The notes beneath the pieces are model-generated. The model ran no database searches, was not told where the DNA came from, and was given only the letters and a program-made list of their open reading frames with translations. Source: Streptomyces sp. NBC_01353 (lineage in GTDB: Bacteria; Actinomycetota; Actinomycetes; Streptomycetales; Streptomycetaceae). Taken from it: a stretch of 64,000 nt of DNA. Position numbers and translations under genes: made by a program. Position 1 is the stretch's first letter, and each line of letters starts with the position of its first letter. Positions 1-24,535 of this stretch are shown one piece after another. The stretch is from positions 3,906,001 to 3,970,000 of the forward strand of contig NZ_CP108352.1 in the NCBI RefSeq assembly GCF_036237275.1, in the 5' to 3' direction.

Positions 1-2096
1 CGCACGGGGGCGCCCGTGTCGGTCAGGGCGTCGCCGCCGGTCGGCACGCCGCCGGTCAGGAGGCCGCCGCCGGCGCGCGCCGCACCGGTCGAGGTGGGGG
101 CCGTGGGGGGCTGCCATTCCTCGAGGCGGTCCTCCAGCTCCGCGGTGGTGATGCCGTCGAGCAGCCGCTCGACGGGTAGTTCGGCGCCGGTCGACCGATG
201 CAGGGCCGCGGCCAGCCGGACCGCGCGCAGCGAGTCCAGGCCGAGGGCGATGAGCGGCATCGTTCGGTCGAGTTCCGCCGCCGGCGTGCCGATCACGACG
301 GCGACGGCCTCGGCGACGACGGACGGGGCGGCGGCGGAGCCGGCGGTATCGGCGGATGCTTCGGAGGTGGCCGTGGGCCGCGGCGCGGCGACCCGCTTGA
401 GCCCGTCGGAGGCCCACAGGTCGCGGCAGGTGGAGCGGCGGATCTTGCCGCTCGTGGTGCGGGGAATGGTGCCCAGGCGCACGAGCGCGATGTCGCGCGG
501 CGCCAGGCCGTGCTCGGCGGCCAGGGCCTCGCGTACGGCGGCCAGGACGCCGGGTGCGTCGTCGGGGGTGAACCCGCGGGCCACCTCGTGGACGAGGACG
601 ACCTGTTCCTCGCCTCCGTCGTCGACGGAGAAGGCGGCGGAGCGGGTCGGCTGGAGCAGCGGGTGGGCGCGCTCGGCGGTCTGCTCGACGTCCTGCGGAT
701 AGTGGTTCCGGCCGCGCACCACCATCAGGTCCTTGATGCGGCCGGTGATGAACAGCTCGCCCTCGGACGTGAAGGCCAGGTCTCCGGTGCGCAGGAACGT
801 GCGCTCCGGGTGGGCGTCGAGCGTGGCCTCGAAGGTGCGGGCGGTCTCCTCCGTACGCTCCCAGTACCCGGCGGCGACGGACGGGCCGCTGATCCAGACC
901 TCGCCCACCTCGCCCTCGGCGCAGGGGTGGCCGTCGGCGACGACGAGGACCAGGTCCTCGCCCTGAGGGGTGCCGCAGCCGGTCAGCGAGAGACGGGGGC
1001 GGGCGTTGTCGCCCGCGGGTTCGGCGCTGCCGCGTTCGAGGGCGGCGCGGTCGAGGTCGAGGACACGGGGGGCTTCCCCGCGGGTCGGGCCGCCGGTGGC
1101 GAACAGCGTCGTCTCCGCCAGGCCGTAGCAGGGGTGGAAGGCGCGCGGGGAGAATCCGGAGACCTCGAACGCGGCGGCGAACTGCGCCATGGTGGAGGGG
1201 CGGACGGGCTCGGCGCCCATCATCGCGTGGCGCCAGCTGGACAGGTCGAGCGCGGCCCGGTCCTCCTCGCCGATCCGCCGGACGCATTCGAGGTAGGCGA
1301 AGTCGGGGGCGGCGGAGACGGTGCCCCGGGTGCGGCTGATCGCGTCCAGCCAGAGCAGGGGCCTGCGCAGGAACGTCATCGGGGCCATCAGGACGCTGGG
1401 GAAGCCGGCGTACAGCGGCTGCAGGATGCCGCCGATCAGCCCCATGTCGTGGTACGGCGGGAGCCAGCTCACGCCCCGGCTGTCGGGGCCGGAGTCGACG
1501 GCCTGCCCGATGGTGGCCGAGTTGTGCACCAGGTTGTCGTGCCGGACCATCACGCCCTTGGGGCGGCCCGTCGAACCGGAGGTGTACTGGAGGAACGCGA
1601 GCGAGTCCGGCCGGGGCCCCCGCCCGTCCCACGTCTCGGCGAGCTCCGCGGGCAGCTCGTCCGTGATCAGCCAGCCGGGGAACGCGGTGGCGGACAGCTC
1701 CGGGTACTGCGCGTCGAGGGCGGTCGCGGTGGCCCGGTCGCTGAGCGCGAGCACCGCTCCGGCGTCGGTGGCGGCGGCCAGCACCATCGGTACGCCGTGC
1801 CGGCCCGCCGGCAGGTGGACGGGGACGGCGACCACGCCCGCGTACAGGCAGCCGAGGAATCCCACCACGTAGTCCACGCCCGGCGGGTACAGCAGCACCG
1901 CCCGCTCGCCGGCGAGTCCGCGCGCACCGAGCGCGGCGGCCACCGTCCTGGCCCTGCGGTCGATGTCCGCGTAGCTCAGGACGAGTTCGCCGGTGTCGGC
2001 GAGGAACTCGAAGGCCGTGCGGTCCGGTGTGCCGTCCGCGCGATCGCGCAGGATGTCGACGAAGGTCCCGCCGCGGGGACGGAGCGCTGAGTGCAC
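1..2096 (-). CDS. Fatty acyl-AMP ligase with C-terminal carrier domain (partial, runs off left edge)
   Basis: This enzyme would activate a carboxylic acid, usually fatty or aryl, as the acyl-adenylate and load it onto its own carrier domain to start an assembly line. Visible motifs are YTSGSTGRPKGVMV (adenylation A3), LPPYHDMGLIGG (typical of the FAAL/FadD32 branch), YGLAETTLF, TGDLAF, and GKIRRS with the catalytic Lys region. A carrier domain follows with LGLDSLRAVRL, where the Ser takes phosphopantetheine. The frame is still open at base 1 after a Pro/Gly linker, so another domain, perhaps condensation, probably follows. The GTG start at 2096 is chosen because AGGAG lies about 8 bases upstream. 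It is the last visible gene of the leftward operon. The acyl substrate cannot be read from the sequence. Confidence 0.9.
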   Translation of the reverse strand, partial: MHSALRPRGGTFVDILRDRADGTPDRTAFEFLADTGELVLSYADIDRRARTVAAALGARGLAGERAVLLYPPGVDYVVGFLGCLYAGVVAVPVHLPAGRHGVPMVLAAATDAGAVLALSDRATATALDAQYPELSATAFPGWLITDELPAELAETWDGRGPRPDSLAFLQYTSGSTGRPKGVMVRHDNLVHNSATIGQAVDSGPDSRGVSWLPPYHDMGLIGGILQPLYAGFPSVLMAPMTFLRRPLLWLDAISRTRGTVSAAPDFAYLECVRRIGEEDRAALDLSSWRHAMMGAEPVRPSTMAQFAAAFEVSGFSPRAFHPCYGLAETTLFATGGPTRGEAPRVLDLDRAALERGSAEPAGDNARPRLSLTGCGTPQGEDLVLVVADGHPCAEGEVGEVWISGPSVAAGYWERTEETARTFEATLDAHPERTFLRTGDLAFTSEGELFITGRIKDLMVVRGRNHYPQDVEQTAERAHPLLQPTRSAAFSVDDGGEEQVVLVHEVARGFTPDDAPGVLAAVREALAAEHGLAPRDIALVRLGTIPRTTSGKIRRSTCRDLWASDGLKRVAAPRPTATSEASADTAGSAAAPSVVAEAVAVVIGTPAAELDRTMPLIALGLDSLRAVRLAAALHRSTGAELPVERLLDGITTAELEDRLEEWQPPTAPTSTGAARAGGGLLTGGVPTGGDALTDTGAPV

Positions 2097-2174: not shown

Positions 2175-2876
2175 TCACAGCAGGGCCGGGGCGGCACAGG
2201 CCGCCACGAACGTGCTGAACAGGTGGTCCTCGTGGGCGACTTCGGGATGCCACTGCACGCCCAGGACGAACCGCTTGGCCGGGTCCTCGACCACCTCGGC
2301 GAGGCCGTCGTCGCTGAGTCCGGTGACCCGCAGGGAACCGGGGTCGGCGACGCCCTGGTGGTGGTGGGAGTTGACGACGGCCTCGGCGCCGTAGACGGAG
2401 GCGGCCAGGGAGCCCTCGGTGAAGCGCACCGGATGCTCGCCGAACACACCGGGCTCCGGGAGGTGCCCGGTGTGACCGAGCACGTCGGGCAGGTGCTGGT
2501 GGAGCGTGCCGCCGTAGAGGAGCGTCAGCAGCTGCAGGCCGCGGCAGATGCCGAGGACCGGCAGGTCGCGCTCCAGCGCGCCGCGCAGCAGGAGCAGCTC
2601 GCCGGCGTCCCGGCCGAGGGCCGGCGGGTCGGTACGCGGGTGGCGGGGCTGTCCGTAGCGCTCGGGGTCGATGTCGGCGCCGCCGGGCAGCATCAGCCCG
2701 TCGAGCCGGTCGAGGACCGCGTCGTCGAGGTCGTCGGGGGGCAGGACGACGGCCCGGCCGCCGTTGGCCGCGATCCCCCGCACATAGCTCTGCTGGATCA
2801 TCGTCGCCTGGGTGTCCCAGATGTCCCACCGGGCGCGGTCCTGGTAGGCGGCGATGCCGATGACGGGACGGCTCAT
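2175..2876 (-). CDS. PuuD-like class I glutamine amidotransferase / gamma-glutamyl hydrolase (peptidase C26)
   Basis: A 233-residue class I amidotransferase-fold hydrolase of the PuuD type, which cleaves gamma-glutamyl amides such as gamma-glutamyl-GABA. The nucleophile Cys111 sits in VLGICRGLQ and the His/Glu pair is in VQWHPEV near the C-terminus. LPGGADIDPERYG is characteristic of the PuuD branch. The ATG at 2876 overlaps the stop of the preceding PLP-enzyme gene (ATGA), so translation is probably coupled. A longer in-frame ORF to 2954 is rejected because its extra residues are low-complexity and lie inside that gene. A gamma-glutamyl ligase of the glutamine-synthetase fold sits at the other end of the cluster (28535-29902). 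The two may add and remove a gamma-glutamyl protecting group, but this is inferred from context. Confidence 0.88.
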   Translation of the reverse strand: MSRPVIGIAAYQDRARWDIWDTQATMIQQSYVRGIAANGGRAVVLPPDDLDDAVLDRLDGLMLPGGADIDPERYGQPRHPRTDPPALGRDAGELLLLRGALERDLPVLGICRGLQLLTLLYGGTLHQHLPDVLGHTGHLPEPGVFGEHPVRFTEGSLAASVYGAEAVVNSHHHQGVADPGSLRVTGLSDDGLAEVVEDPAKRFVLGVQWHPEVAHEDHLFSTFVAACAAPALL

Positions 2877-4234
2877 CGCGTACCGCCTCCGACTCCGGCG
2901 GGGACCGGGGCGGGCAGGGCGTCCGGCGAGACCGTGCGCAGCGACGAGGCGCACAGCGCCAGCGCGTCCTGGAGCAGCGGGGAGTCACCGGCGAGCGGAG
3001 CGCCGTACGGGGTGCGGGTGCGCAGGGCGGCGACGCGGCGGGCGAGCTCGTCCGCCGGAGCCGTGTCGCGCACGGCGGCCACGAAGACGTCGGCCAGTTC
3101 GGTGAAGTCCTCGCCGGAAAGGCCCTGGTAGGTGGCCTCGTTGAGGCCGATGCGGACGCCCTGGCCGGTGAAGCCCGGCAGGCCGGCCATGAAGTTGACG
3201 CGCAGTCCGGCGGCGAAGAGCCGGTCGCTGGCCACCTTCGCGGGGACGCCGTCCGCCTCGGGGTCGAGCCACAGCTGGTGTCCCGCGGAGTAGCCTCGGT
3301 CGGCGGCCATCACCGTGAGTCCGCGCTCGGTGAGCAGCTGCCCGAAGCGCCGGGTGTGGGCGACGACGGCGCGGGCGTAGTCGGCGCCGCCGAAGTCACG
3401 GAACTCGAGCAGGGAGATGCCGAGGCTGATCGTCGCCGCGAAGTGATGGTTGCTGATCATGAAGTCCTGGGTCTCGCGGATGCGCCGCTCGACCTCCTTG
3501 TTCCGCGTCAGCAGAACGGCCTTCTGCGGGCCGGGGAACGTCTTGTGGGTGGAACCGCCGAAACTGTCCGCGCCCTCGTCGAGCGGGTTGCGGAACACTC
3601 CGGCGAGCACCAGGCCCAGCCAGTGGCTGGCGTCGACGTGCACCAGCGTCTCGGGGCTCACCCGGCGGACCGTGGCCACCAGGCTCGCGACGTCCAGGGG
3701 GAAGAGGCAGTGCGACTGGTCGACGTAGAGCAGCGTCGGGCGGACCCGGCCGAGGAGCTCGGCGGCGTGGTCCAGGTCCAGCGCGTGGGGGTCGTCGCCG
3801 GTCAGGAACTCGACGCGCAGACCGAGCCGTTCGGCGACCTGCGGGGTCGCGTAGTGGCCGCCGAGGTCCGGGCTGATGGTGACGACGGTGGAGCCGGGCT
3901 CGCCACCGAGGGTGGCCAGCGCCAGGGTCATGGCGTTGAGGCCGCTGAGCGGGCGGACGGTGACGTAGTCGGCGCGGCCGAGCTCCTCCAGGAGCGGGAC
4001 GGTGAGGCCCATCTCCAGGTCGCGCAGGTGCTGGGCGCCGCGGAAGTGCCAGCCGTCCGGGTTGTCGCTCTCGTTGAAGAAGTAGCGGTGGTACGCGTCG
4101 AGCATCATCGGCAGCTTCGCTATGCCGGACATGGCCGTCTCGGAGGGGACCATGCTGAGGGTGCGGTTCGCGTGCTCCTCGTTGCGCACGAGCAGCCGCA
4201 TGACGTCGCCGAGGGTCGGGCTCTCGTACGGCAT
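2873..4234 (-). CDS. SHMT-fold PLP-dependent enzyme (serine hydroxymethyltransferase-like)
   Basis: A 453-residue fold-type I PLP enzyme resembling serine hydroxymethyltransferase. The PLP lysine is Lys231 in GGSTHKTFPGP (canonical GlyA has TTTTHKTLRGP), and VDASHWLGLVLAG at about 200-212 matches the SHMT Asp/His region. The N-terminus has NRTLSMVPSET, close to the GlyA substrate-binding segment. Differences from housekeeping GlyA in the Lys motif, together with the cluster setting, suggest a specialised C-C bond-forming or beta-replacement reaction on glycine, serine or a similar amino acid. It starts at an ATG with GGAAAGGAC upstream and lies 23 bases after hypF, with a 4-base overlap to the amidotransferase gene. 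The true substrate is unknown. Next to HypE/HypF, a role in capturing a one-carbon or cyano group is an attractive inference. Confidence 0.85.
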   Translation of the reverse strand: MPYESPTLGDVMRLLVRNEEHANRTLSMVPSETAMSGIAKLPMMLDAYHRYFFNESDNPDGWHFRGAQHLRDLEMGLTVPLLEELGRADYVTVRPLSGLNAMTLALATLGGEPGSTVVTISPDLGGHYATPQVAERLGLRVEFLTGDDPHALDLDHAAELLGRVRPTLLYVDQSHCLFPLDVASLVATVRRVSPETLVHVDASHWLGLVLAGVFRNPLDEGADSFGGSTHKTFPGPQKAVLLTRNKEVERRIRETQDFMISNHHFAATISLGISLLEFRDFGGADYARAVVAHTRRFGQLLTERGLTVMAADRGYSAGHQLWLDPEADGVPAKVASDRLFAAGLRVNFMAGLPGFTGQGVRIGLNEATYQGLSGEDFTELADVFVAAVRDTAPADELARRVAALRTRTPYGAPLAGDSPLLQDALALCASSLRTVSPDALPAPVPAGVGGGTR

Positions 4235-4257: not shown

Positions 4258-6636
4258 TCACGGGTGGGTGGTCCTCTCGTGCAGGCGGGCGCCGGCGACC
4301 ATCACCTGGCCGAGCGCGATGCCGCCGTCGTTGGTCGGGACCTGCTGGTGGACGTACGCCTCGAATCCCGCCCTGCGCAGCTCGACCAGGCAGTTGACGA
4401 GCAGGAACTCGTTGAGGAACACGCCGCCCGAGAGCACGACCTGGGTGGTGCCGAGCGTCCGGCGGATCTCCTCGCACCGCTCGGTCACCATGGCGACCAC
4501 GGAGGAGTGGAACCGGCGGCTGACGACCTCCGCAGCGGTACCGCGCGCGAGGTCCGCCGCGATCTCGCGGACGACCGGGCGCGGGTCGATCTCGACCACG
4601 CCGTCCCGTTCGCCGCGGCCGAAGGCGTACGGCTCGGCCAGGATGAGGTCCCGGCCCAGCAGGCCTTCCAGCTCGATCGGGCCCTGCGCCTCGTACTCGG
4701 CGTGGGAGCAGATGCCGACCAGCGCGGCGACACCGTCGAAGAGGCGCCCCATGCTGGAGGCGAGCGGAGCGTTGATCGAGCGCCGCACCATCGTGGTGTA
4801 GACGTGCCGGGCCTGCTCGTCCAGGGCGTGCAGGGCGGGGAAGGCCGCGTGGGCGGCGTCCGGGTCGTCGAAGGCATCGAGGGCGAGGGCGAAGCCGGTA
4901 CGGATCGGCTCCTGGACCGCCTTGTCGCCGCCGAGCAGCGGGATCGGCCGCAGATGGGCGGCGCGGTCCACCGCGGCGAACGAACCGTGCAGGAACTCGC
5001 CGCCCCAGATGGTGCCGTCCTCGCCGTAGCCGGTGCCGTCGAAGACGACCCCGAGGGTGGCGCCGTCGAGCCGGTTCTCCGCCATGCAGGAGGCCATGTG
5101 GGCGTGGTGGTGCTGGACCGGGAACACCTCGCGCGACGCCTCGTCGTCGGCGAGGACGCGGGAGCGGAAGGAGGGGTGCATGTCGACCGCGACGACGCCC
5201 GGCTCCAGCTCGTACAGCTCGGCCAGGTGGGCGGCGGTGTGCCGGTGCGAGGCGAAGGTCTCGTCGTTCTTCAGATCGCCGATGTGCTGGCTGACGTAGA
5301 CCTCCTGGCCGGAGCCGAGCGCCACGGTGGTCTTCAGCTCGGCGCCGTACGCGAGGATCTGCGGCAGGTCGCCGGCGACGGGGACGGGGTACGGGGCGTA
5401 GCCGCGGGCCCGCCGGACGAAGCTGACGAGCGGCTCGGCGAGCTCGGGGTGGACCGAGCGGCGGACGACGGAGTCGTCGACCCGGATGTGGATGTCCCGG
5501 TCGTGGTGCAGGACCAGGTCGGCCACCTCGAAGAGGTCGCGCAGCGCCTCGTCGTTGCGATAGGCGATGGGGCTGCCGGAGATGTTGCCGCTCGTCATCA
5601 CCAGGACGTCGAGTCCGGGCCGTTCGAGCAGCAGATGGTGCAGCGGTGCGGACGGCAGCATCACGCCGAGGTTGGGGTTGCGCGGCGCGATCGACTCCGG
5701 CAGGCCGAGTCCGGCGGCCTTGCGCAGCAGGACGACGGGGCGGGCAGGGGAGCCGAGCAGCTCGCCGTCGCCCTCGTCGAGCTCCACGAAGCGGGCGGCG
5801 GAGGCGATGTCCTCCACCATCAGCGCGAAGGGCTTGGAGTCGCGGCGCTTGCGCCGACGCAGCAGGGCGACGGCTTCCGCGTTGCGGGCGTCCGCGACCA
5901 GGTGGAAGCCGCCGACGCTCTTGACGGCCACGATCCGGCCGGCGGCCAGGGCCGCCGTCGTCGCGGTCAGCGCCTCGTCGTCCCGGGCGATCTCGCCCTC
6001 GGGCGAGGCCAGCGTCAGCCGGGGCCCGCAGTCGGGGCAGGCGTTCGGCTGGGCGTGGTAGCGCCGGTCTGCGGGGTCCTCGTACTCCGACCGGCACCGC
6101 TCGCACATCCGGAAGACCGCCATGGTGGTCTGTTCCCGGTCGTACGGCAGGCGCCGGATCAGCGAGTAACGGGGCCCGCAGTGCGTGCAGTTGGTGAAGG
6201 GGTAGCGGTGCCGGCGGTCCGCCGGGTCCCGCACCTCCGCCAGGCACGCGTCGCACACGTGCGAGTCGGGCGCCACGATGGTGCCGGCCCGGCCGTCGCG
6301 TACGCTCTCGCGGATCTCGAACCCGCTGTACGCGTCGGCCGGTGCCAGGTCGTCGCGGCTCTCGATCCGCACCTCGTTGACCCGCGCCAGCGGCGGGGCC
6401 TGGGTGCTCAGCGCCTCCTGGAAGGCGCCGAGCACGTCGGACGGTCCGCACACCAGAGTCTGCACACCGTGGTTGTCGTTGAGCACCCAGCCGGTCAGTC
6501 CGAGTCGGTGGGCGAGGGTGTGGACGAAGGGCCGGTAGCCCACGCCCTGCACCACGCCGTTGACCCGGATCAGCCACTGGCTCGGACGGGAGTCGTGGAC
6601 GCTCTCCACGGACCCGGTGTCGGTGATCTGCTGCAC
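4258..6636 (-). CDS. hypF: HypF, carbamoyl phosphate-dependent carbamoyltransferase
   Basis: A full-length (792 aa) HypF. HypF uses carbamoyl phosphate and ATP to make carbamoyl-adenylate and carbamoylates the C-terminal cysteine of HypE. Domains in order: acylphosphatase (VNGVVQGVGYRPFVHTL at about 25-41), four CxxC zinc ligand pairs (C128/131, C150/153, C178/181, C200/203), a YrdC-like domain, then a Kae1-like domain with the metal motif VQHHHAHMAS. All these elements look intact, which separates it from TobZ-type O-carbamoyltransferases that lack the acylphosphatase and zinc-finger parts. The GTG start has GGAG 8 bases upstream and lies 13 bases after hypE. No hydrogenase structural gene and no hypA, hypB, hypC or hypD is present in the window. 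Confidence 0.95.
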   Translation of the reverse strand: MQQITDTGSVESVHDSRPSQWLIRVNGVVQGVGYRPFVHTLAHRLGLTGWVLNDNHGVQTLVCGPSDVLGAFQEALSTQAPPLARVNEVRIESRDDLAPADAYSGFEIRESVRDGRAGTIVAPDSHVCDACLAEVRDPADRRHRYPFTNCTHCGPRYSLIRRLPYDREQTTMAVFRMCERCRSEYEDPADRRYHAQPNACPDCGPRLTLASPEGEIARDDEALTATTAALAAGRIVAVKSVGGFHLVADARNAEAVALLRRRKRRDSKPFALMVEDIASAARFVELDEGDGELLGSPARPVVLLRKAAGLGLPESIAPRNPNLGVMLPSAPLHHLLLERPGLDVLVMTSGNISGSPIAYRNDEALRDLFEVADLVLHHDRDIHIRVDDSVVRRSVHPELAEPLVSFVRRARGYAPYPVPVAGDLPQILAYGAELKTTVALGSGQEVYVSQHIGDLKNDETFASHRHTAAHLAELYELEPGVVAVDMHPSFRSRVLADDEASREVFPVQHHHAHMASCMAENRLDGATLGVVFDGTGYGEDGTIWGGEFLHGSFAAVDRAAHLRPIPLLGGDKAVQEPIRTGFALALDAFDDPDAAHAAFPALHALDEQARHVYTTMVRRSINAPLASSMGRLFDGVAALVGICSHAEYEAQGPIELEGLLGRDLILAEPYAFGRGERDGVVEIDPRPVVREIAADLARGTAAEVVSRRFHSSVVAMVTERCEEIRRTLGTTQVVLSGGVFLNEFLLVNCLVELRRAGFEAYVHQQVPTNDGGIALGQVMVAGARLHERTTHP

Positions 6637-6649
6637 TGGACCGCTCCGC

Positions 6650-7675
6650 TCAGCAGAGACGCGGGAGTTCCGCGCCCTGCAGTTCCTCGATCGTCTGGAC
6701 CTTGCCGTCGGCGCCGGTCATCTCGACCGCGGCCTCGGCCCGGTCGGTGATCTCGCCGATGACCACGGCGTGCTTGCCGTACGGGTGCGCGTGCAGGGCG
6801 GCCAGGACCTCGTCCACCGCCTCGGGGGCGACGAAGAGGGCGAGGCAGCCCTCGTTGGCGGCGTTGATCGGGTTGATGCCGAGCATGTCCGAGGCCATGC
6901 GGGTGGCGAACTCGATCGGCAGGTCCTCCTCCCGCACCGAGACGACCCGGCCGACGGCCGAGGAGTACTCGTGCAGGACGGCGTTGAGGCCGCCGCGCGT
7001 GACGTCGCGCATGGAGTGCACCGCACCGCGCTCGATCAGCTCGTCGAGGCCCGCGATCATCCCGTTCAGCGGCGCGCAGTCGCTGAGGACGTTGGTCTCG
7101 AAGCCGAGGCCCTCGCGGACGGACAGCAGGTGGACGGTGTGGTTGCCGATCGGACCGCTCAGGATGATCCGGTCGCCGGGGCGGACCGAGGTCATGCGCA
7201 GCGGCTCACGGTGGAAGACGCCGACGCCGGTGGTGTTGAGGAAGATCTGGTCCGCCTCACCCACGCCGACGACCTTGGTGTCACCGGCGACGATCTTGAC
7301 GCCGGCCTCCTTGGCGGTGTCCCGGATCGACTCCAGGACGCGGTGCAGGGTGGAGATCGGCAGACCGGTCTCCAGGATCATCGCCAACGTCAGGTACTCG
7401 GGCTTCGCGCCGACCACGGCAAGGTCGTTGACCGTTCCGCAGACCGCGATCTTCCCGATGTCGCCGTTTCCGAAAAGCGGCGGGTCGACGACGAAGGAAT
7501 CGGTGGTCAGTGCGATGTTGCCGGCCGGGACCGGCAGCATCGCGCTGTCTTCCATTTCTCCTGTGTAGACGTCCCCCAGCACACCCACCACGAAATCGAC
7601 CAGCTCCCGACTGAGTCGGGCCCCGGTGCCGTGGTCAAGGACGATCTTCTGATCCAGCAAGGACTTCGTGCTCAT
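6650..7675 (-). CDS. hypE: HypE, carbamoyl dehydratase (enzyme-thiocyanate forming)
   Basis: A 341-residue PurM/SelD-fold protein matching HypE over its whole length. HypE accepts a carbamoyl group on its C-terminal cysteine from HypF and dehydrates it with ATP to enzyme-bound thiocyanate, the cyanide donor for [NiFe] hydrogenase. Visible motifs are TTDSFVVDPPLFGNGDIGK and GTVNDLAVVGA (ATP binding), IVAGDTKVV, MRDVTRGGL, and the C-terminus LPRLC, where Cys341 is the carbamoyl/cyano carrier (PRIC in hydrogenase HypE). The tail cysteine is retained, so carbamoyl-to-cyano chemistry is probably still used. The ATG start has only a weak upstream purine stretch. It sits between the cysteine hydrolase gene and hypF in a biosynthetic operon, not a hydrogenase operon. 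Confidence 0.95.
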   Translation of the reverse strand: MSTKSLLDQKIVLDHGTGARLSRELVDFVVGVLGDVYTGEMEDSAMLPVPAGNIALTTDSFVVDPPLFGNGDIGKIAVCGTVNDLAVVGAKPEYLTLAMILETGLPISTLHRVLESIRDTAKEAGVKIVAGDTKVVGVGEADQIFLNTTGVGVFHREPLRMTSVRPGDRIILSGPIGNHTVHLLSVREGLGFETNVLSDCAPLNGMIAGLDELIERGAVHSMRDVTRGGLNAVLHEYSSAVGRVVSVREEDLPIEFATRMASDMLGINPINAANEGCLALFVAPEAVDEVLAALHAHPYGKHAVVIGEITDRAEAAVEMTGADGKVQTIEELQGAELPRLC

Positions 7676-7760: not shown

Positions 7761-8345
7761 TCACGGGGTCTGGACGACCTTGCGGGGCAGCGCGCCCTCG
7801 CTGTCGATCACGCGCAGGATCTCGTCGGAGTCGACGACCGTCGCGCAGTAGCCGGCCAGCCAGTCCAGGGCGCGGACCTTGTCGGCCTCCTTGGCGGAGA
7901 CGACACAGTCGCTGGGGACGTAGACGTTGTAGCCGCGGAAGAAGGCGTCGGCGGCGGTCGTCTGGACGCAGATCTGGCCCTGCATGCCCGTCACCAGGAC
8001 GGTGTCGACACCGAGCGCCTGCAGGCGCTCGTGCAGGTCGGTCTCGTAGAAGCCGCTGTCCTTGTTCTTCTCGACGAGGATGTCGGTGTCCTCCAGGAAG
8101 ACCGGGAGGATCTCCGCGCCCTTGCTGCCCTTCTGCGAGGGGACGATGCCGTTGTGGAGCTCCACGTTCGGGTCGTCGGGCAGGTTGATCAGCTGCAGGT
8201 GGACGACGTGGTGACCACGCTTGCGCATCTCGTGGAGGAAGCCGGAGAAGGCCGGGGTGGCCTCGGTGACGGCGTCGATGCGCTCCTGGTTCTTGTGGAC
8301 CATGTCGTACTGGAGGTCGTTGGTGAGAACAGCGATCTTGCTCAT
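7761..8345 (-). CDS. Isochorismatase-like cysteine hydrolase
   Basis: A 194-residue member of the isochorismatase/nicotinamidase cysteine-hydrolase family. The catalytic triad is visible: Asp10 in LTNDLQYD, Lys95 in the EKNKDSGF segment, and Cys126 in GMQGQICVQTT. Members hydrolyse amides (nicotinamide, carbamoyl compounds), ureides or isochorismate, and the substrate cannot be assigned from sequence. The ATG at 8345 is preceded by GAGGAGA at 6 bases, better than the in-frame start at 8408. It is separated from hypE by 85 bases and from the free condensation gene by 132 bases, all in the same direction. No 2,3-dihydroxybenzoate genes are nearby, so a siderophore-type isochorismatase role is unlikely. 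An amidase step in the pathway fits better. Confidence 0.85.
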   Translation of the reverse strand: MSKIAVLTNDLQYDMVHKNQERIDAVTEATPAFSGFLHEMRKRGHHVVHLQLINLPDDPNVELHNGIVPSQKGSKGAEILPVFLEDTDILVEKNKDSGFYETDLHERLQALGVDTVLVTGMQGQICVQTTAADAFFRGYNVYVPSDCVVSAKEADKVRALDWLAGYCATVVDSDEILRVIDSEGALPRKVVQTP

Positions 8346-8477
8346 TCGTATCTCCTCGAAAAGCGAGCGTGGATTCCTCGCGGAGCTTCTCCGCGAGGCG
8401 CATTCCATGGGCCGAAGAATCTCCCGGAAACCAGGTCCGTAAGTAGTCGGGGAAACCCCCGACCCCCGGCCCCGACA

Positions 8478-9878
8478 TCACCCGAAGACGCGGTGCTCCG
8501 GGGTGTGTGCCATTTCGGCCAGAAGGCCGTGGTATTCCCTCATCAGTTCCTCGATGCGGCCGGCGGTGAACTGCTCGGTGCGGTAGAGGACGATGCAGTG
8601 GGCGCGCTCGGCGTCGTGGCGCAGCCGGATGTTGAGGGGGCGCAGCACGTGCTGCCGTTCGGGGATCAGCGGCTCCATCCGCAGGTCCCCGAGCGTGTCC
8701 GGGGTGTCGAACTCCTCCTCTGCGGTGAACTGCACGTGGAACAGCCGGGCCAGCAGCCCCGGGTCCGGCAGGTGCGGCTCCAGCAGGTGCGGCGGCAGGT
8801 CGTGGCGTGCGAAGTCGGCGGCCGTGCCGGCCTTGATCTGCTCCAGGAGCTCGCCGAGCGTCGGGTCGGCGGACAGATCGGTGCGGACGATCACGTCGTT
8901 GGAGAAGTCCGCGACGAGATCGCGTACGTCGCTGGTGTCGCGGAACGAGATCGGTGCCCGTACGCAGATGTCGCGCTGGCCCGAGCGGCGGGCGAGCAGC
9001 GCCGTGAAGGCGGTGAGGCCCACCGTGTACAGCGTGGTGGCGCGCTCGGTCGCGAGCCGGCGGATCGCCGCGTACAGCTCGTCGGGCATCGGTACGTCGA
9101 CGCCGGCGCCCCGCTGGGAGGGGACCGGGGGCAACTCCAGGTCGTCGGGGAGCACGGCCGGTTCGGCTCCCGCGAGCCGCTCCGTCCAGTAGGCGATCAG
9201 CTCGACGCCGCGCGGCCCGTCGAGCCGCTCGCGGTGCCAGGCGGCGAAGTCGGCGAACTGTACGCGCAGCGGCTCCAGAGGCGCGGGTACGCCTGCCTGG
9301 GCGGCGGTGTAGTGGGCGCCGAGGTCGCGCACGACGACCTCCACCGTCCGGGCGTCACCGATGATGTGATGCACCATCAGGAAGACGATGTGGTCGTCGT
9401 CGGCGAGCCGGAGCAGCTTCAGCCGGGCGAGCGGCCCGTGCTCCAGGTCGAAGGGCCGGTCGCCCTCCTCCCACACGAACGCCGCGAAGTCCTCCGGGGC
9501 GGCCGTCTCGATCACCTCGACCGGCAGCCGCAGGGTCGGGGCGACCACCTGGGTCAGCACCCCGGCCTCCACCCGCAGCGAGCTGCGCAGGGTCTCGTGC
9601 CGGGCCACGACCGCGTTCCAGGCCTCCTCGAGGAGCGGGACGTCCAGCACGCCGTACAGCCGTACGGCGGCCAGGATCGCCGGCGCGGGTCCCGCGCTGT
9701 CCGCGAGCCCCTCCCACATGCCCTCCTGGGTGACCGCGGCCCGGAACCTCAACTCCCCCGCCGGCCGCGGAAGCACCCGTATGCCGTCGGCGGCGGCCCC
9801 CCGTCGGCGACGCATCAGCGCCGCCTCCAGGCGGGCGCGGGCCGCCTGATCCGTCCTGTCCAGCTGTGCTCGCGTCAT
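8478..9878 (-). CDS. Stand-alone NRPS condensation domain protein
   Basis: A 466-residue protein made of one condensation domain, preceded by a short Arg/Ala-rich helix that may dock to a partner. The active-site motif is HHIIGD (HHxxxD) in FLMVHHIIGDART. VARHETLRS, PFDLEHGPLARLKLL, VQFADFAAWHRERL and FSNDVIVRTDLS are further conserved C-domain segments. It would join an acyl or aminoacyl carrier-bound donor to an acceptor amine, acting in trans. It is the first gene of the leftward operon that ends with the acyl-AMP ligase, so N-acylation of an amino acid or amine by the acyl starter is a reasonable guess. The promoter should lie in the divergent spacer upstream. Confidence 0.9.
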   Translation of the reverse strand: MTRAQLDRTDQAARARLEAALMRRRRGAAADGIRVLPRPAGELRFRAAVTQEGMWEGLADSAGPAPAILAAVRLYGVLDVPLLEEAWNAVVARHETLRSSLRVEAGVLTQVVAPTLRLPVEVIETAAPEDFAAFVWEEGDRPFDLEHGPLARLKLLRLADDDHIVFLMVHHIIGDARTVEVVVRDLGAHYTAAQAGVPAPLEPLRVQFADFAAWHRERLDGPRGVELIAYWTERLAGAEPAVLPDDLELPPVPSQRGAGVDVPMPDELYAAIRRLATERATTLYTVGLTAFTALLARRSGQRDICVRAPISFRDTSDVRDLVADFSNDVIVRTDLSADPTLGELLEQIKAGTAADFARHDLPPHLLEPHLPDPGLLARLFHVQFTAEEEFDTPDTLGDLRMEPLIPERQHVLRPLNIRLRHDAERAHCIVLYRTEQFTAGRIEELMREYHGLLAEMAHTPEHRVFG

Positions 9879-12810: not shown

Positions 12811-15462
12811 TCACTCGCCTGCGGCGAACCTGGCCAGTCCGGCAGGCGTACGGAGGCGGTACACCTCTCGCACACCGACGACGAGGTCGCGGTCCTTCAG
12901 CAGCCGTACGATCCGCAGCGCGAGAAGCGAGTTGCCGCCGAGCTCGAAGAAGTCGTCGTCCGGCCCCACTCCGGCGTGGAACAGCTCCCGCCAGACCCCG
13001 AGCACCCCGTCCAGCGCCGGGTCGCCTGCGGCCGCGGGCGCGGGCGCCGTGGGAGCCGCGACCGGGCCTGCCTCCGGGGTCCTGTACGGCGCGGTGTCGG
13101 GCGCCGGGAGACGGGCCGTGTCCACCTTGCCGTTGACGGTCAGCGGCAGCGCGTCCACCCGGGTCAGGGTCGTCGGCATCATGTACTCCGGCAGCACACG
13201 CGCGGCGTGCCGCCGCACCTCCGCCGTGTCCGCGCCGTCGAGGACCGTGTACGCGTCCAGACGGACCTCCCCGGCCTCGTCCCGGCCCAGGACCACGGCC
13301 GCCGCGACGACGGCCTCGTGGGCGAGCAGGACGTTCCTGATCTCGCCCAGTTCGATGCGGTAGCCCCGTACCTTCACCTGGTCGTCGAGACGGCCCAGGT
13401 GTTCGAGACGGCCGTCCGGGAGGAGCGCGCCGAGGTCGCCGCTGAGGTAGAGACCGCCGGTGCCGTCGGGGTCGGCGACGAAACGGCGGGCGGTGAGCTC
13501 GGGCTGGTTCAGGTATTCCAGAGCCACCCCGTCGCCGGCCACCGCGATCTCCCCGGGCGAGCCCGGAGGCAGCAGCCTGCCCCGGCCGTCCAGGACCCGC
13601 ACGGACCAGCCCGGGATCGCCCGGCCCACGGAGCGCGAGCCGGTCAGCGCCTCGGCGCGGGTGACGGTCTGCGCGGTGACGTGCACGGTCGTCTCGGTGA
13701 TGCCGAACATGTTGACCACCCGGCACGTCGACTCCGGGTGCGCGTCGAACCAGGGGGTCAGCGACCGGGCGTCCAGCGGCTCCCCACCGAAGATCACCAG
13801 CCGGACGTCCAGCGGGCCCCGCCCCGGCGCGCGCTCCAGTTCGAGGAGGCGGGCGAAGGCCGACGGCGTCTGGTTGAGGACGGTCACCCGCTCCTTGGCG
13901 AGCAGCTCACGGAAGTCCTCGGGAGAACGACAGGTCCAGTACGGGACGACCACGAGCCGCCCGCCGGTGAGCAGACACCCCCAGATCTCCCAGACCGAGA
14001 AGTCGAAGGCCGCCGAGTGGAACCAGGACCAGACGTCGTCCGGCCCGAGGCCGAAGTCGGGACCGGTGGCGCTCACCAGGTCGGACACGTTGCGGTGCGG
14101 GACGACCACGCCCTTGGGCCGGCCCGTGGAACCCGAGGTGTAGATCACGTAGGCGGGGTCGTCGGGCCCGGTGCCGGAGGCCGGCGGCTCCTCGGGCGCG
14201 CCCTCGGCCAGCTCCTCCAGTCGGGCCAGGGGAACGGCGATGCCCGCCGCGAACGGCGTCGTCTCCGTCTCCGCGATGCCGACCAGGACGACCTTCAGGC
14301 CCGCGTCCTCCGCGGTGTAGGCGAGGCGTTCGGCCGGACTGGTGGGGTCCATGGGTACGTAGACGGCGCCGGCGGTCAGGACGGCGAGCAGGACGACGAC
14401 CAGATCCGCGCCGCGGTCCAGGCAGACCCCGACCCGGTCGCGCGGGGCGACCCCGAGGCTCCGCAGGGCGTGGGCAAGGCGGCCTGCCCTGCGGGCGAGC
14501 TGACGGTAGGTCACCGTGGTGTCGCCGTCGACCAGGGCGACGGCGTCGGGGCCGGCGGCGGCACGGGCCAGCACCTGCTCGTGCACGGTTCCCGCGCGGC
14601 GGCCGGTGGTACGCGGGGTGGCGCCCAGGTCGAGGATGCGGCGCCGTTCGCCGGCGTCGACGACGTCCACGTCGGCGAGCCTGCGGTCCTGGTTGCCGGT
14701 GGTCAACTCCGCCACGGCGGTGATGAATTGGCGCACAAGAATCTCCGCCCGCCAGTCGGGGACGTCCTGCGGCCGGTACCAGGCGGTGACGGAGCGCGGG
14801 GTGGCGTGCACGGTCAGGACGTGCCGGGGGTCGAGCGGGGGCAGGTGGTGCGGGTACGGGTCCACGCGCACGGCGAAGCGGACGCCGTCGGCGTCGGGTC
14901 GCCGTTCACCCGCCCGCGCGCGGTACTCCGCGACCGTACGGTCCTCGTCGGCCTCGACGGGCAGGGCTGCGGTGTACGCCTCCCCCTCCTCCGTGCGGAC
15001 ATCGAGGACCGGCCGCTGCGCGGCGCACGTCCGGGCCAGGACCAGCCCGAACGCGGCGATCAGGTCGGCGGGCGGGACGTCCGGGATCTCGACCGGAAGC
15101 ATGGCGAGGGCTCCGTCGAGGGGCGCGGGGGCGGGGACCGGTGCGGGCTCGGCCGACCCGTCCCCGACCAGCGCGGCGGCGACCTCGCCGAGGGGCCGGT
15201 CGCCGGCCAGCACGAGCTCGCGCACGCCGTCCGTGTACTCCAGCACCACGGCCCGCACGTCGGCCCCGCCGAGTGGCGCGTGCAGCTCGGCGGCGCGCCG
15301 CCGCTCGGCGAGGGGTCCGTCCGACGGCCCGTCGACGGGCTCCGTCCACAGCCGCACCCCGTCCACACGTCCATCGACGACGGCGCCACCGGGCACCCGG
15401 TAGACGGCTCCATGAGGGGACATCCCGCGCCCGACGGCGCCTCCGGCACGCTCCGATGACAC
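12811..15462 (-). CDS. NRPS module: half condensation domain - adenylation - PCP
   Basis: An 883-residue NRPS protein. Residues up to about 300 resemble only the second lobe of a condensation domain (ADLIAAFGLVLAR), and I see no proper HHxxxDG. The adenylation domain follows, with YTSGSTGRPKGV, FDFSVWEIWG, NMFGITETTVH, YLSGDLGA and NGKVD. The PCP has FFELGGNSLLALR. There is no epimerase or thioesterase. By eye, the ten specificity residues read D-F-W-S-I-G-M-V-H-K, one change from the threonine code DFWNIGMVHK, so Thr or a Thr-like residue is predicted. The GTG at 15462 is chosen for AGGAG 5 bases upstream. The frame stays open further upstream through a GC repeat, but that extension is low-complexity. 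Confidence 0.88.
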   Translation of the reverse strand: MSSERAGGAVGRGMSPHGAVYRVPGGAVVDGRVDGVRLWTEPVDGPSDGPLAERRRAAELHAPLGGADVRAVVLEYTDGVRELVLAGDRPLGEVAAALVGDGSAEPAPVPAPAPLDGALAMLPVEIPDVPPADLIAAFGLVLARTCAAQRPVLDVRTEEGEAYTAALPVEADEDRTVAEYRARAGERRPDADGVRFAVRVDPYPHHLPPLDPRHVLTVHATPRSVTAWYRPQDVPDWRAEILVRQFITAVAELTTGNQDRRLADVDVVDAGERRRILDLGATPRTTGRRAGTVHEQVLARAAAGPDAVALVDGDTTVTYRQLARRAGRLAHALRSLGVAPRDRVGVCLDRGADLVVVLLAVLTAGAVYVPMDPTSPAERLAYTAEDAGLKVVLVGIAETETTPFAAGIAVPLARLEELAEGAPEEPPASGTGPDDPAYVIYTSGSTGRPKGVVVPHRNVSDLVSATGPDFGLGPDDVWSWFHSAAFDFSVWEIWGCLLTGGRLVVVPYWTCRSPEDFRELLAKERVTVLNQTPSAFARLLELERAPGRGPLDVRLVIFGGEPLDARSLTPWFDAHPESTCRVVNMFGITETTVHVTAQTVTRAEALTGSRSVGRAIPGWSVRVLDGRGRLLPPGSPGEIAVAGDGVALEYLNQPELTARRFVADPDGTGGLYLSGDLGALLPDGRLEHLGRLDDQVKVRGYRIELGEIRNVLLAHEAVVAAAVVLGRDEAGEVRLDAYTVLDGADTAEVRRHAARVLPEYMMPTTLTRVDALPLTVNGKVDTARLPAPDTAPYRTPEAGPVAAPTAPAPAAAGDPALDGVLGVWRELFHAGVGPDDDFFELGGNSLLALRIVRLLKDRDLVVGVREVYRLRTPAGLARFAAGE

Positions 15463-15503
15463 GTCAACTCCTGAAGATCCTGGAAGAAAGGGGGAAAGGC
15501 AGA

Positions 15504-15818
15504 TCTGGCCGGGCGGCGGACACCAGGGCCGGGGCCCGGAGGCCCGGGGGGTCAAAGCCCGGGGCCCGGGGACCCGGGTGCCAAGGCCCAGGGCGGGGGC
15601 CGGGGCCCGGGGGACCAAAGCCCGGGGCCCGGAGGCCCGGGGGGTCAAAGGGGGGCCCGAGGGCCAATGCCCAGGGCCCGGTGGCCCGGGTGCCAAGGCC
15701 CAGGGCGGGGGCCAGGGCCGGGCCCACGGGGACCAAAGCCCAGGGCCCGGAGGCCCGGGGGGCCAAGGCCCAGGGCCCGGGGGGGCCAAGGCCCCGAGGG
15801 CCAAGGCCCCGGCCGACG
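15504..15818. repeat. GC-only tandem repeat array between SDR and NRPS genes
   Basis: This roughly 315-base stretch is built almost entirely from G and C runs such as GGGCCCGGAGGCCCGGGGGG and CAAAGCCCGGGGCCCGG. A larger unit beginning at 15541 recurs at about 15633 and 15751 with changes, so it is a degenerate higher-order repeat with a period near 90-118 bases. It occupies almost all of the 360-base gap between the SDR stop (15825-15823) and the NRPS start (15462), inside one leftward transcription unit. Several frames are open across it and would encode Gly/Pro-rich repeats, but I see no start site that supports translation. Confidence 0.85.
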
Positions 15819-15822
15819 GTGC

Positions 15823-16653
15823 TCAGCGGATGCTGTAGCCGCCGTCGACCGTGACCACGCTTCCGGTTGCCGACCGGGACTCGTCCGTCGCGAGCCAGAC
15901 CACCGCTCCGGCCACGTCCTCGGCCTCCACAAGGGCGTTCGTCGGTTGTTGGGTGATGAACGCCTCCTCGTGCTCGGCCGGGTCGAGGCCGATGCTGCGG
16001 CCGATCTCCGCCAGCATCCGGCCCTCGCCGTGGCCGGTGTCGCGCACCGAGCCGGGGCAGACCGCGTTGACCCGTACCCGGTACGGCGCGTAGTCCAGCG
16101 CCGCGGCCCGGGTCAGGCCGATCAGACCGTGCTTGGAGGCGACGTACCCGGCGAAGTTGCGGTAGCCGACAAGACCCGCGGTGGAGGCGATGTTGACGAT
16201 GGAGCCGGCCCGTCGCCGGGTCATCCCCGGGCCGACCGCCTTGATCAGGCGCCAGGGCGCGTTGAGGTTGGTGTCCATCATCACGGACCAGTCGCTCTCG
16301 CCGACCTCGTGCACGATGCGCCCCGAAGGACCGGCGATCCCCGCGTTGTTGACGAGGACGTCCACCTTCCCGAAGCGGGCCTCGGCCTCGGCGACGACCC
16401 GTTCCGCCTCCTCCTCGCGGCGCACGTCCGCGCGTACGGTCAGGACCGCGGCCCCCCGCTCGCGGCACAGCCGCGCCGTGTGCTCCAGCTGGGCGGCCGA
16501 CGCCATCGGGTACGGCACCTCGGCCACCTCGGCCGCGATGTCGACGAGGACGAGCGCGGCCTGCTCCTCGGCCAGCGCGAGCGCGCACGCCCGCCCGATG
16601 CCGCGCCCCGCGCCGGTGACGACGGCGCACTTGCCGGTCAGCCGGCCGGTCAC
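15823..16653 (-). CDS. Mycofactocin-type short-chain dehydrogenase/reductase
   Basis: A 276-residue SDR. The Rossmann motif is VTGAGRGIGRA, the catalytic Ser lies in NIASTAG, and Tyr/Lys in YVASK. It has the insertion after beta-2 that marks mycofactocin-dependent SDRs (AEVPYPMASAAQLEHTARL). In that family NAD is tightly bound and electrons are passed to the peptide cofactor mycofactocin. The GTG start overlaps the thioesterase stop (GTGA). It would oxidise a hydroxyl or reduce a carbonyl in the pathway; the substrate is not evident. If the mycofactocin link holds, the host should carry mft genes elsewhere. None are in the window. Confidence 0.88.
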   Translation of the reverse strand: MTGRLTGKCAVVTGAGRGIGRACALALAEEQAALVLVDIAAEVAEVPYPMASAAQLEHTARLCRERGAAVLTVRADVRREEEAERVVAEAEARFGKVDVLVNNAGIAGPSGRIVHEVGESDWSVMMDTNLNAPWRLIKAVGPGMTRRRAGSIVNIASTAGLVGYRNFAGYVASKHGLIGLTRAAALDYAPYRVRVNAVCPGSVRDTGHGEGRMLAEIGRSIGLDPAEHEEAFITQQPTNALVEAEDVAGAVVWLATDESRSATGSVVTVDGGYSIR

Positions 16654-17369
16654 GAGGCCGCTCCGTCGGCGGTGGCCGCCGCCACGAGGTCGAGCAGCGC
16701 GGCCCACCCGTCGACCAGGTACATGTGCCCGCCGTCGATCTCCGTCTGGTCGAAGCCGGCCGAGGTGATCTCCCGCCATTCGGCGAGCTCGGTCGCCGAC
16801 ACCAGGTCGTCGGAGCGACCGCGTACGGCGAGGACCGGGACGTCGAGCGGACCGGCGGCGGTGTGGACGTAGTTCTCGTGCATCGCCACATCGGTCCGCA
16901 GCGTGGGCAGGATCAGCTCCCGTAGCTCCGGCTCGTCGAGGGCGGGGTGCTTGTAGCCCGCGATCTCGGCGACACCGGCCACGAAGTCGTCGTCGGGCAG
17001 CCCGGTGACCCGCCCGGCCCGTGGGGTCCCGGGCCGGTTGGAGCCGCTCACCACGAGGGTCGCCGCGGTGTCGGGCGCCTTCTCGGAGAGCCTGCGGACG
17101 GTCTCGTACGCGAGGAGCGCGCCGTAGCTGTGGCCGAAGACGGCCACGCGCTCGGCGCCGTCGATCTCGGCCAGCAGCTCGGGCACGATGCGCGCCATGA
17201 GGGTGTCCAGGTCGGTGCACTCCTCCTCCGCGAGTCGGCGCTCGCGGCCGGGGAGCTGCACGGGAACGACCCGCAGGTCGTCGCGGTGGCCGAGCCAGGG
17301 GTGGAAGAAGCTGGCGCCCGCCCCGGCAGGGGGGAAGCACAGCACGGGAACGGGTACGGGCGTGGACAT
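16650..17369 (-). CDS. Type II thioesterase
   Basis: A 239-residue alpha/beta-hydrolase of the type II thioesterase family, which removes mis-loaded or stalled groups from carrier proteins. The nucleophile is Ser81 in FGHSYGALLAYE, the Asp is in VRGRSDDLV and the His in IDGGHMYL. FPPAGAGASFFHPW at the N-terminus is characteristic. No NRPS protein here has an integrated thioesterase, so this enzyme could also release the product, but editing is the safer call. GGAG lies just before the ATG. It is flanked by the C-PCP gene (27-base gap) and the SDR gene (overlap) in the same operon. Confidence 0.92.
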   Translation of the reverse strand: MSTPVPVPVLCFPPAGAGASFFHPWLGHRDDLRVVPVQLPGRERRLAEEECTDLDTLMARIVPELLAEIDGAERVAVFGHSYGALLAYETVRRLSEKAPDTAATLVVSGSNRPGTPRAGRVTGLPDDDFVAGVAEIAGYKHPALDEPELRELILPTLRTDVAMHENYVHTAAGPLDVPVLAVRGRSDDLVSATELAEWREITSAGFDQTEIDGGHMYLVDGWAALLDLVAAATADGAAS

Positions 17370-19085: not shown

Positions 19086-19235
19086 CGGGAGTGGACCTCC
19101 TGGGTCGGACGGGGACCGGTCCACCGCATCCTGTGCGCTCCCGTGCCCGCGCCGGGAGTCGGGAAGACCCCTGACTGACCAGGCGCTCCGCGCGATGCCA
19201 GAGTTGCTGCCTCCATACGTCACGGAGGCCCCCAC

Positions 19236-20180
19236 ATGCAGTACCGCCCGATGAACGAGAGCGATCTGGACGCCGTCCTCGCCTGGGACGTCAAGGAGCC
19301 CGTCTCCTGGATCGACGCCGACCGCTACCGCGAGGAGACCGCGGCCCGGCAGTGCCGCCCGGAGTGGACGTGGATCGCGGAGGAGGACGGCCGGATCCTC
19401 GCACGGGCCCTGTGGTGGGGCCGCTCGGACAGCGAGCGTCCGATCACCCTGGACTGCCTGACCGTCCACGAGTCGGTCGCCGATCCGGCCGCCGTCGCCG
19501 CCGAGCTGCTCGGGGCCGCGCACGCGGTCTTCGCCGAGCAGGGGGCCGCCACCCCGCCCGCGTACAACATCATGCTTCCGCAGGACGAGGGCGACGAGGC
19601 CGGCCGCACCGCGGCCGCCGCCTGGCGCGAGGATGCGGCCCGGCGCGCGGGGCTGAGCGAGCGGATCCAGCGGCTGCGGTTCGAGTGGGCGCCGGAGGCC
19701 GGTGTCCCCGGGCCCTCGGACCGGCTCGTGTTCACCGCCGAGCCCGACGACGAGGCGTTCGTCGAGGTGTTCCGTCAGGTCGCGCGCGGCAGCCTGGACA
19801 GCGAGACCATCGCCAACGTCGCGTCCATGGGCGAGGAGGGCGCCGCCCGCGACGACCTCGAGTTCTACACGGGCTGCCCCGGCAAGCGGGAGTGGTGGCG
19901 GCTCGCGCACACCCCGGACGGGCAGCTCGCCGGCTTCGCGATCCCCTCCCGTACCCCGTACGGGCCGAACGTCGGCTACCTCGGGGTCGTCCCCGAGCTG
20001 CGCGGCCGACGCTACATCGACGACGTCCTCGCCGAGATCACCCGCTTCCACGCGGGTGAGGGCGCCGAGCGGATCACCGCCACCACGGACTCCACCAACG
20101 TCCCGATGGCGAACGCCTTCCGTCGTGGCGGATACCGCGTCAGCGAGATCCGCGTGATCCTCGCGGCGCCCGCCGCCTGA
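19236..20180 (+). CDS. Tandem GNAT-family acetyltransferase-like protein
   Basis: A 314-residue protein with two GNAT-like halves. The C-terminal half has the acetyl-CoA region YLGVVPELRGRRYIDDVLAE and the ending NVPMANAFRRGGYRVSE. The N-terminal half is degenerate. Proteins of this shape acetylate amines in metabolism or resistance. Here it could acetylate the product for self-protection, act as a tailoring enzyme, or be a bystander. The ATG is preceded by GGAGG at about 7 bases. It is the first gene of the rightward block leading to the oxygenase and NRPS genes. Confidence 0.8.
   Translation: MQYRPMNESDLDAVLAWDVKEPVSWIDADRYREETAARQCRPEWTWIAEEDGRILARALWWGRSDSERPITLDCLTVHESVADPAAVAAELLGAAHAVFAEQGAATPPAYNIMLPQDEGDEAGRTAAAAWREDAARRAGLSERIQRLRFEWAPEAGVPGPSDRLVFTAEPDDEAFVEVFRQVARGSLDSETIANVASMGEEGAARDDLEFYTGCPGKREWWRLAHTPDGQLAGFAIPSRTPYGPNVGYLGVVPELRGRRYIDDVLAEITRFHAGEGAERITATTDSTNVPMANAFRRGGYRVSEIRVILAAPAA

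Positions 20181-21130: not shown

Positions 21131-24535
<3,405 letters not shown>

Follow-up and report, generated by a model that had tools for sequence, protein, structure and literature searches.

The stretch of DNA analysed here, referred to as the window, comprises 64,000 nucleotides of Streptomyces sp. NBC_01353 (contig NZ_CP108352.1, positions 3,906,001 to 3,970,000). Near its left end lie genes for HypF and HypE, whose chemistry, according to the literature, is one step in the maturation of [NiFe] hydrogenases, and for a hydrolase-fold protein:

4258-6636, minus strand: HypF, carbamoyltransferase (792 aa; TIGR00143, 739.6 bits against a cut-off of 466.1)
6650-7675, minus strand: HypE paralogue with a PRLC tail (341 aa; TIGR02124, 415.2 bits against a cut-off of 251.6)
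7761-8345, minus strand: isochorismatase-fold cysteine hydrolase, the third member of the cassette (PF00857, 111 bits)

The gaps are 85 bases between the hydrolase and HypE genes and 13 between those for HypE and HypF. A sequence-only reading had placed a complete HypF and a complete HypE at exactly these positions and had proposed that they form a dedicated cyanide or nitrile module within a nonribosomal peptide synthetase (NRPS) cluster. Both proteins are indeed full length with their catalytic motifs retained and pass their family models; profile searches find acylphosphatase, zf-HYPF, YrdC and Kae1-like domains in HypF, which has four CxxC motifs (at 128, 150, 178 and 200), and HypE ends in ELPRLC. 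In a structure model of the window HypE (pLDDT, the predicted local distance difference test, 92.5), the best match among solved folds is HypE.

The pair belongs to a three-gene cassette composed of the hydrolase, HypE and HypF; the sequence-only reading had taken it for a two-gene unit and left the hydrolase gene out. To sample related loci, genomes were scanned with the window HypE at one genome per species, and the best 80 of 91 loci were kept; the scan was seeded by short peptides of this protein, so HypE is sampled unevenly. Gene content was read by tblastn at E 1e-6, with at most 10 kb of flank available, and among the 63 cassette loci 15 fall short of 20 kb. All-against-all clustering of open reading frames (ORFs) returned mostly shadow frames, and no count draws on it. 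The 80 loci divide into 63 cassette loci (L005-L067), with HypE 48-97% identical to that of the window, and 17 hyp-operon loci (L068-L084), with HypE 40-47% identical. HypF is present in all 63 cassette loci, and the isochorismatase-fold hydrolase gene in 60 of them versus none of the 17 hyp-operon loci. With operon proteins as queries, HypA, HypC and HypD were found in none of the 63 cassette loci, whereas HypD and HypC are each present in 16 of the 17 hyp-operon loci, the one lacking both (L079) being a 6-kb contig. The cassette loci span five phyla: Actinomycetota, Pseudomonadota, Myxococcota, Chloroflexota and Chlamydiota. The cassette of Escherichia sp. E1V33 had no match in Escherichia coli genomes by megablast, which is insensitive to distant DNA.

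Because both window proteins exceed the hydrogenase equivalog cut-offs, they might be regarded as a back-up or alternative hydrogenase maturation pair, a reading that we consider very improbable. The genome (8.57 Mb, with the window beginning at 3906 kb) has a pair for that purpose elsewhere. Its sole HypD match lies at G000:C1:897528-898571, beside a second HypE at 896.4 kb; the sole HypB over the cut-off is at 901.5 kb, and the sole hydrogenase large subunit over the cut-off is at about 907-908 kb. The same operon contains a second HypF, 43.8% identical to the window HypF, together with HypC and HypA, both named by eye. A separate hypA-F operon and a hydrogenase thus sit 3 Mb from the cassette in the same genome, and the window pair is therefore not needed for the hydrogenase. 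The second HypE and HypF at 0.9 Mb also rule out that the window pair is the only copy in the genome. The genome-wide search for HypD, HypB and the large subunit placed none of them beside the window, in agreement with the earlier statement that no hydrogenase or other hyp gene lies nearby. The arrangement named beforehand as fatal to a dedicated role, namely a hydrogenase and the remaining hyp genes just left of the window using this pair, was looked for, and the proposal survived.

Two genome surveys bear on the same point, one of 298 Actinomycetota genomes at least 95% complete and one of 393 genomes of the window's genus. Both scored 8 to 11 first-look candidates per genome and called a cassette hydrolase above 300 bits. 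The first survey found HypE over the cut-off in 131 of 298 genomes and the cassette hydrolase in two (the window's own genome and G181), the next hydrolase match scoring 112 bits. The genus survey found the cassette hydrolase in 21 of 393 genomes, in every case with HypE within about 1.1 kb. Among these 21, HypD exceeds its cut-off in 13 (in G666, the C-terminal part only), and the hydrogenase large subunit exceeds its cut-off in 12 and not in the other nine. Eight of the 21, all near-complete (98-100%), have neither HypD nor large subunit over the cut-off, which argues against a back-up pair, and their single HypE over the cut-off is that of the cassette. In the first set of loci, 21 of 49 cassette genomes have HypD over the cut-off and 28 lack it; the 49 are the genomes behind 50 of the 63 loci, and their completeness is not stated. 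The two sets overlap: of the 20 genus-survey loci other than the window's, 12 agree with a locus of the first set at every base of a 160-base stretch. These genomes and the separate hypA-F operon uphold the earlier claim of independence from hydrogenase, and the sequences give good support to a dedicated, hydrogenase-independent HypE/HypF module. An extra HypE-like protein below the cut-off (216-227 bits) occurs in three cassette genomes, G356, G536 and G597.

The cassette HypE forms a branch of its own. In a tree of 82 rows from which the last four residues had been removed, the 64 cassette rows are split from the 18 operon rows with a branch support of 100; the tree was built by a quick method that flagged long branches. 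The removed residues differ as well. Of the 63 cassette loci, 61 have the tail PRLC and two (L060 and L066) have broken ends; all 18 operon rows have PRIC. Apart from the window's own, 16 of the 20 genus-survey cassettes have complete tails, all of them PRLC (six are new relative to the first set), and four are cut. All seven plasmid cassettes likewise have HypE ending in PRLC. Among the survey HypE proteins, the window's own excluded, the 29 with the highest scores end in PRIC, and 24 of them have HypD in the short locus; as top scorers, they are biased toward typical HypE. Three further positions distinguish the groups: position 70 is Asn in 64/64 cassette rows and Gly in 18/18 operon rows; position 182 is His in 64/64 cassette rows and Ala (16) or Thr (2) in the operon rows; and position 277, two residues from Glu275, is Cys in 57/63 cassette rows (Asn or Val in six) and Lys in 18/18 operon rows. 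According to excerpts of a 2025 paper, every HypE shares PRIC, and delivery to HypCD cannot proceed without it (PMC12130793), so that the cassette tail also counts against a back-up role. The tail departs as well from the form PR(I/V)C given in excerpts of PMC4506123, whereas the TIGR02124 score, the C-terminal cysteine and the ATP motif DX4GAXP, named there as a HypE motif, are all found in the cassette HypE.

The catalytic residues are retained. Lys134 of HypE is present in 64/64, Glu275 in 63/64 and Cys341 in 62/64 cassette rows; we take Lys134 and Glu275 to be the dehydration residues known from Thermococcus kodakarensis HypE. Cassette and operon HypF proteins share 128 positions, including the eight CxxC cysteines and Arg35 and Asn53, presumably the acylphosphatase residues. 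On this basis HypE-S-CN is probably still formed by the same chemistry, with a change of recipient. For the hydrolase-fold partner (structure model pLDDT 86), the family score is reached, and alignment to its best solved relative by sequence, the N-carbamoylsarcosine-amidase-related protein 3eef, locates Asp10, Lys93 and Cys126, which we assume to be the Asp-Lys-Cys triad of isochorismatase-like hydrolases. Cys126 is present in 59 of 61 rows, and the remaining two are gapped there. In Nocardia loci L019, L021, L032, L033, L039 and L042, the hydrolase has Gly for Asp10 and Arg for Lys93 and retains the cysteine.

The kinship with 3eef would also suit carbamoylation, in which HypE-S-CO-NH2 is itself the donor, dehydration goes unused and the hydrolase-fold protein serves to move carbamoyl groups or to edit them; excerpts of PMC6022934 add that the O-carbamoyltransferases of antibiotic pathways are relatives of HypF. 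We consider this unlikely. The HypE lysine and glutamate just described as presumed dehydration residues, and the ATP motif, are kept in nearly all rows. In addition, an O-carbamoyltransferase is not known to need HypE.

On balance, we think it rather probable that the cassette is a dedicated cyano-group module, in which a CN unit is derived from carbamoyl phosphate via HypF and HypE and passed to an organic acceptor. HypF would move the carbamoyl group of carbamoyl phosphate onto the C-terminal Cys341 of HypE, and HypE, with ATP, would dehydrate it to HypE-S-CN. Rather than to the HypC-HypD iron, the CN would then go to Cys126 of the isochorismatase-fold partner, straight to a small organic acceptor, or to both, with the hydrolase-fold protein relaying or controlling the unit. 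The acceptor would be supplied by a pathway-specific enzyme, which in the window may be the pyridoxal phosphate (PLP) enzyme of serine hydroxymethyltransferase (SHMT) or threonine transaldolase kind encoded next in the operon, and the product of this enzyme would be used by the adjoining NRPS line, which begins with a fatty acyl-AMP ligase (FAAL). Candidates for the final group include a nitrile, a cyanamide, a cyclic guanidine and an isourea, among others.

The remaining features of the window that surround the cassette are as follows:

1-2096, minus strand: FAAL-ACP-C-A-T protein (ACP, acyl carrier protein; C-A-T, condensation, adenylation and thiolation domains), extending about 3.2 kb left of the window
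2175-2876, minus strand: peptidase C26 / gamma-glutamyl-GABA (gamma-aminobutyrate) hydrolase-like protein (PF07722, 200 bits)
2873-4234, minus strand: PLP enzyme of the SHMT / threonine transaldolase kind, called 'hypothetical protein' in the sister cluster
8376-8398, minus strand: inverted repeat with perfect 10-bp arms and a loop of 3 bases, immediately upstream of the hydrolase gene
8478-9878, minus strand: stand-alone condensation domain (PF00668, 192 bits)
12811-15804, minus strand: NRPS protein with an adenylation (A) domain, true start uncertain
16650-17369, minus strand: thioesterase (PF00975, 111 bits)
17397-20051, minus strand: NRPS protein with condensation and carrier domains, assigned by eye, ORF start uncertain
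20302-21042, plus strand: 2-oxoglutarate-Fe (2OG-Fe) dioxygenase-like protein, named after a sister-cluster protein to which it is 72% identical
21131-24535, plus strand: C-A-T NRPS

The SHMT-like gene follows that of HypF after 23 bases, and the start of the C26-like gene overlaps its stop. The best NCBIfam match of the SHMT-like enzyme is the fluorothreonine transaldolase model TIGR04506, although at 200.4 bits it falls far below the cut-off of 650. From presumed code positions, we take the A domain of the FAAL protein to be serine-like, that of the 12811-15804 protein to be threonine-like and an A domain left of the window to be serine-like but unusual. No residue could be assigned to the code of the 21131-24535 protein, whose A domain is a candidate for carrying the modified residue. 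The inverted repeat could form a leader or terminator hairpin within the operon. The window gene set is retained in a sister cluster on a plasmid of Streptomyces sp. NBC_01361, which contains genes for a major facilitator superfamily (MFS) protein, a C-A-T NRPS, a 2OG oxygenase, a condensation protein, an alpha/beta hydrolase, a short-chain dehydrogenase/reductase (SDR) and an adenylation protein, followed by the hydrolase, HypE, HypF, SHMT-like, C26 and FAAL-type NRPS genes. In one comparison, the match to the threonine-type adenylation protein of the window fell on another NRPS gene of this plasmid.

Across the first set of loci, the surroundings of the cassette vary, and the NRPS cluster, which the sequence-only reading had treated as its defining setting, had to be rejected in that role: NRPS-type matches occur in 14 of the 63 loci, namely the ten with an SHMT-like gene, three from Sorangium and L065. 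The C26 gene occurs in nine of the 63, two ATP-grasp proteins have matches in 18 and 19 loci, and a class-III transaminase has one in 17 (far from the cassette in L023 and L047); the transaminases of L018, L050 and L053, all three that were tested, pass TIGR00709, the diaminobutyrate family. GNAT genes were found in 12 loci, a haem-oxygenase-like protein (a weak Pfam match) in ten and an M20 hydrolase in eight, and seven Nocardia loci have a helix-turn-helix gene that is ParB-like by eye. In four loci a CarB-like paralogue stands beside the cassette with SDR, DegT and MFS genes, which we count as support for the cyano-group module. These paralogues qualify as a clean second synthetase in part: the four copies are uneven and one passes the family cut-off, that of G012, which does so together with its neighbours (1072 versus 1027 bits), while G020 has a 1011-aa frame below the cut-off and G019 and G024 have frames of about 600 aa. 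Plasmid pF1D35B of Streptomyces clavuligerus (L168) carries hydrolase, arginase-family, ATP-grasp, DUF3865, HypE and HypF genes; this carrier of the cassette is a well-studied antibiotic producer.

The smallest setting is found in enteric loci and plasmids. Five enteric or Trinickia loci have LysR and HAD genes, four of them with MFS, and a Citrobacter freundii plasmid and a Salmonella plasmid show the order LysR, trio, HAD, MFS. So few genes (a regulator, the trio, a phosphatase and an exporter) would fit a generator of free cyanide or thiocyanate acting as poison or signal, in which the hydrolase cysteine strips CN off HypE and HCN leaves. We regard this as quite unlikely, since the partners found elsewhere (amino-acid, ATP-grasp and NRPS) point to incorporation, and the exporter and phosphatase may better fit a larger, phosphorylated intermediate. 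In Trinickia locus L055 (14071-18276), a SIS-domain protein, a protein that is nitrilase-like by eye and a HAD phosphatase are encoded near the cassette, a possible sign of a sugar-phosphate acceptor or of a nitrile.

Expression data come from a symbiotic setting. Paraburkholderia phymatum and P. phenoliruptrix each have a symbiotic plasmid on which ectB, a GNAT gene and the trio adjoin a hydrogenase operon; in P. phymatum STM815 the trio is Bphy_7270-7272. The operon has its own hypA, B, F, C, D and E, 15-18 kb from the cassette; on both plasmids the operon HypE ends in PRIC and the cassette HypE in PRLC. Excerpts of a study of P. phymatum nodules formed by a nifA mutant report log2 changes of -7.58 for ectB, -8.06 for the GNAT gene, -6.29 for the hydrolase, -5.17 for the cassette hypE and -7.47 for its hypF, and a fall in 2,4-diaminobutanoate as well (PMC8305402). 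This joint fall with the diaminobutyrate transaminase and GNAT transcripts, as far as those excerpts go, is counted as support for the cyano-group module. According to the same excerpts, the hydrogenase genes fall too, and the nifA data alone therefore do not separate a cassette function from a hydrogenase function. The adjacency and the shared fall also speak for a back-up maturation pair, against which stands the second pair that both plasmids hold in the hydrogenase operon. Degraded class-III transaminase remnants, recognized by eye, lie downstream of the cassette hypF in P. phymatum (L169, 16000-16600), with intact ectB upstream, as if one transaminase had replaced another.

A more general interpretation extends the cyano-group module to all of these settings, and we put it forward tentatively, as falling somewhat short of an even chance. 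On this view the cassette would be a general bacterial system, carried in part on plasmids, for building a protein-bound cyano group out of carbamoyl phosphate and handing it over to organic amines or carbanions. The products would be nitriles, cyanamides or, where a ring closes with an adjacent amine or hydroxyl, cyclic guanidines and isoureas. Acceptors would be diaminobutyrate in one branch, a beta-hydroxy amino acid in the window and perhaps an amino-sugar phosphate in enterics, with uses in NRPS products, ATP-grasp peptides and nodule metabolism.

Several observations weigh against a cyano-group module: (i) The hydrolase is missing from three of the 63 loci; L045 is at a contig end and L051 is a 7.5-kb contig, but L063 lacks it despite full flanks. 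(ii) Both the triad Asp and the triad Lys are changed in six Nocardia hydrolase rows, and the Asp is Glu or Asn in two further rows. (iii) Cys277, beside the catalytic Glu, is not universal among the cassette rows (57/63). (iv) Two of the HypD-less genomes, G536 and G597, hold an extra HypE-like protein scoring 218 and 227 bits, just under the cut-off of 251.6. (v) An auxiliary hydrogenase role is possible in Paraburkholderia, where the cassette adjoins the hydrogenase operon and both fall in the nifA mutant; the operon's own hypE and hypF are set against it.

Relative to known systems, the cassette resembles the HypE/HypF pair of [NiFe]-hydrogenase maturation in full length, domains, motifs and expected substrates (carbamoyl phosphate and ATP), and differs from it in having an isochorismatase-fold partner and no detected HypC or HypD. 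Should its product be a nitrile, it would share the C-N triple bond with known nitrile-forming enzymes. The routes named in excerpts of PMC11611611 and PMC13060819 are oxime formation, carboxylic-acid derivatisation, AetD and asparagine-synthetase-like enzymes, and these excerpts describe no transferable CN from carbamoyl phosphate. The earlier statement that no such pathway has been described was nearly right. Within the open-access literature, partial texts included and most subscription papers lying outside, nothing related by its title was found on hypE, hypF and an isochorismatase together, and orphan hypE/hypF genes are the subject of one remark: a decRiPPter study notes them, with no other hyp genes, in a cluster with an ATP-grasp gene, and suggests a novel function in a candidate class of ribosomally synthesized and post-translationally modified peptides (PMC7794033). 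That cluster probably belongs to one of the cassette groups with ATP-grasp genes, although the passage, unlike the present analysis, describes no third gene, tail, clade or spread.

The separate HypE branch, the steady third partner and the cassette genomes lacking HypD and hydrogenase over the cut-off suggest that an enzymatic cyano donor has been recruited for small-molecule chemistry. Annotation would then have to allow that matches to hypE and hypF do not prove a hydrogenase, and PRLC versus PRIC would provide a one-residue marker that separates the cassette from hydrogenase HypE. Compounds with unusual C-N groups could be sought by mining genomes for the cassette, and a new enzymatic cyanation would become directly testable.

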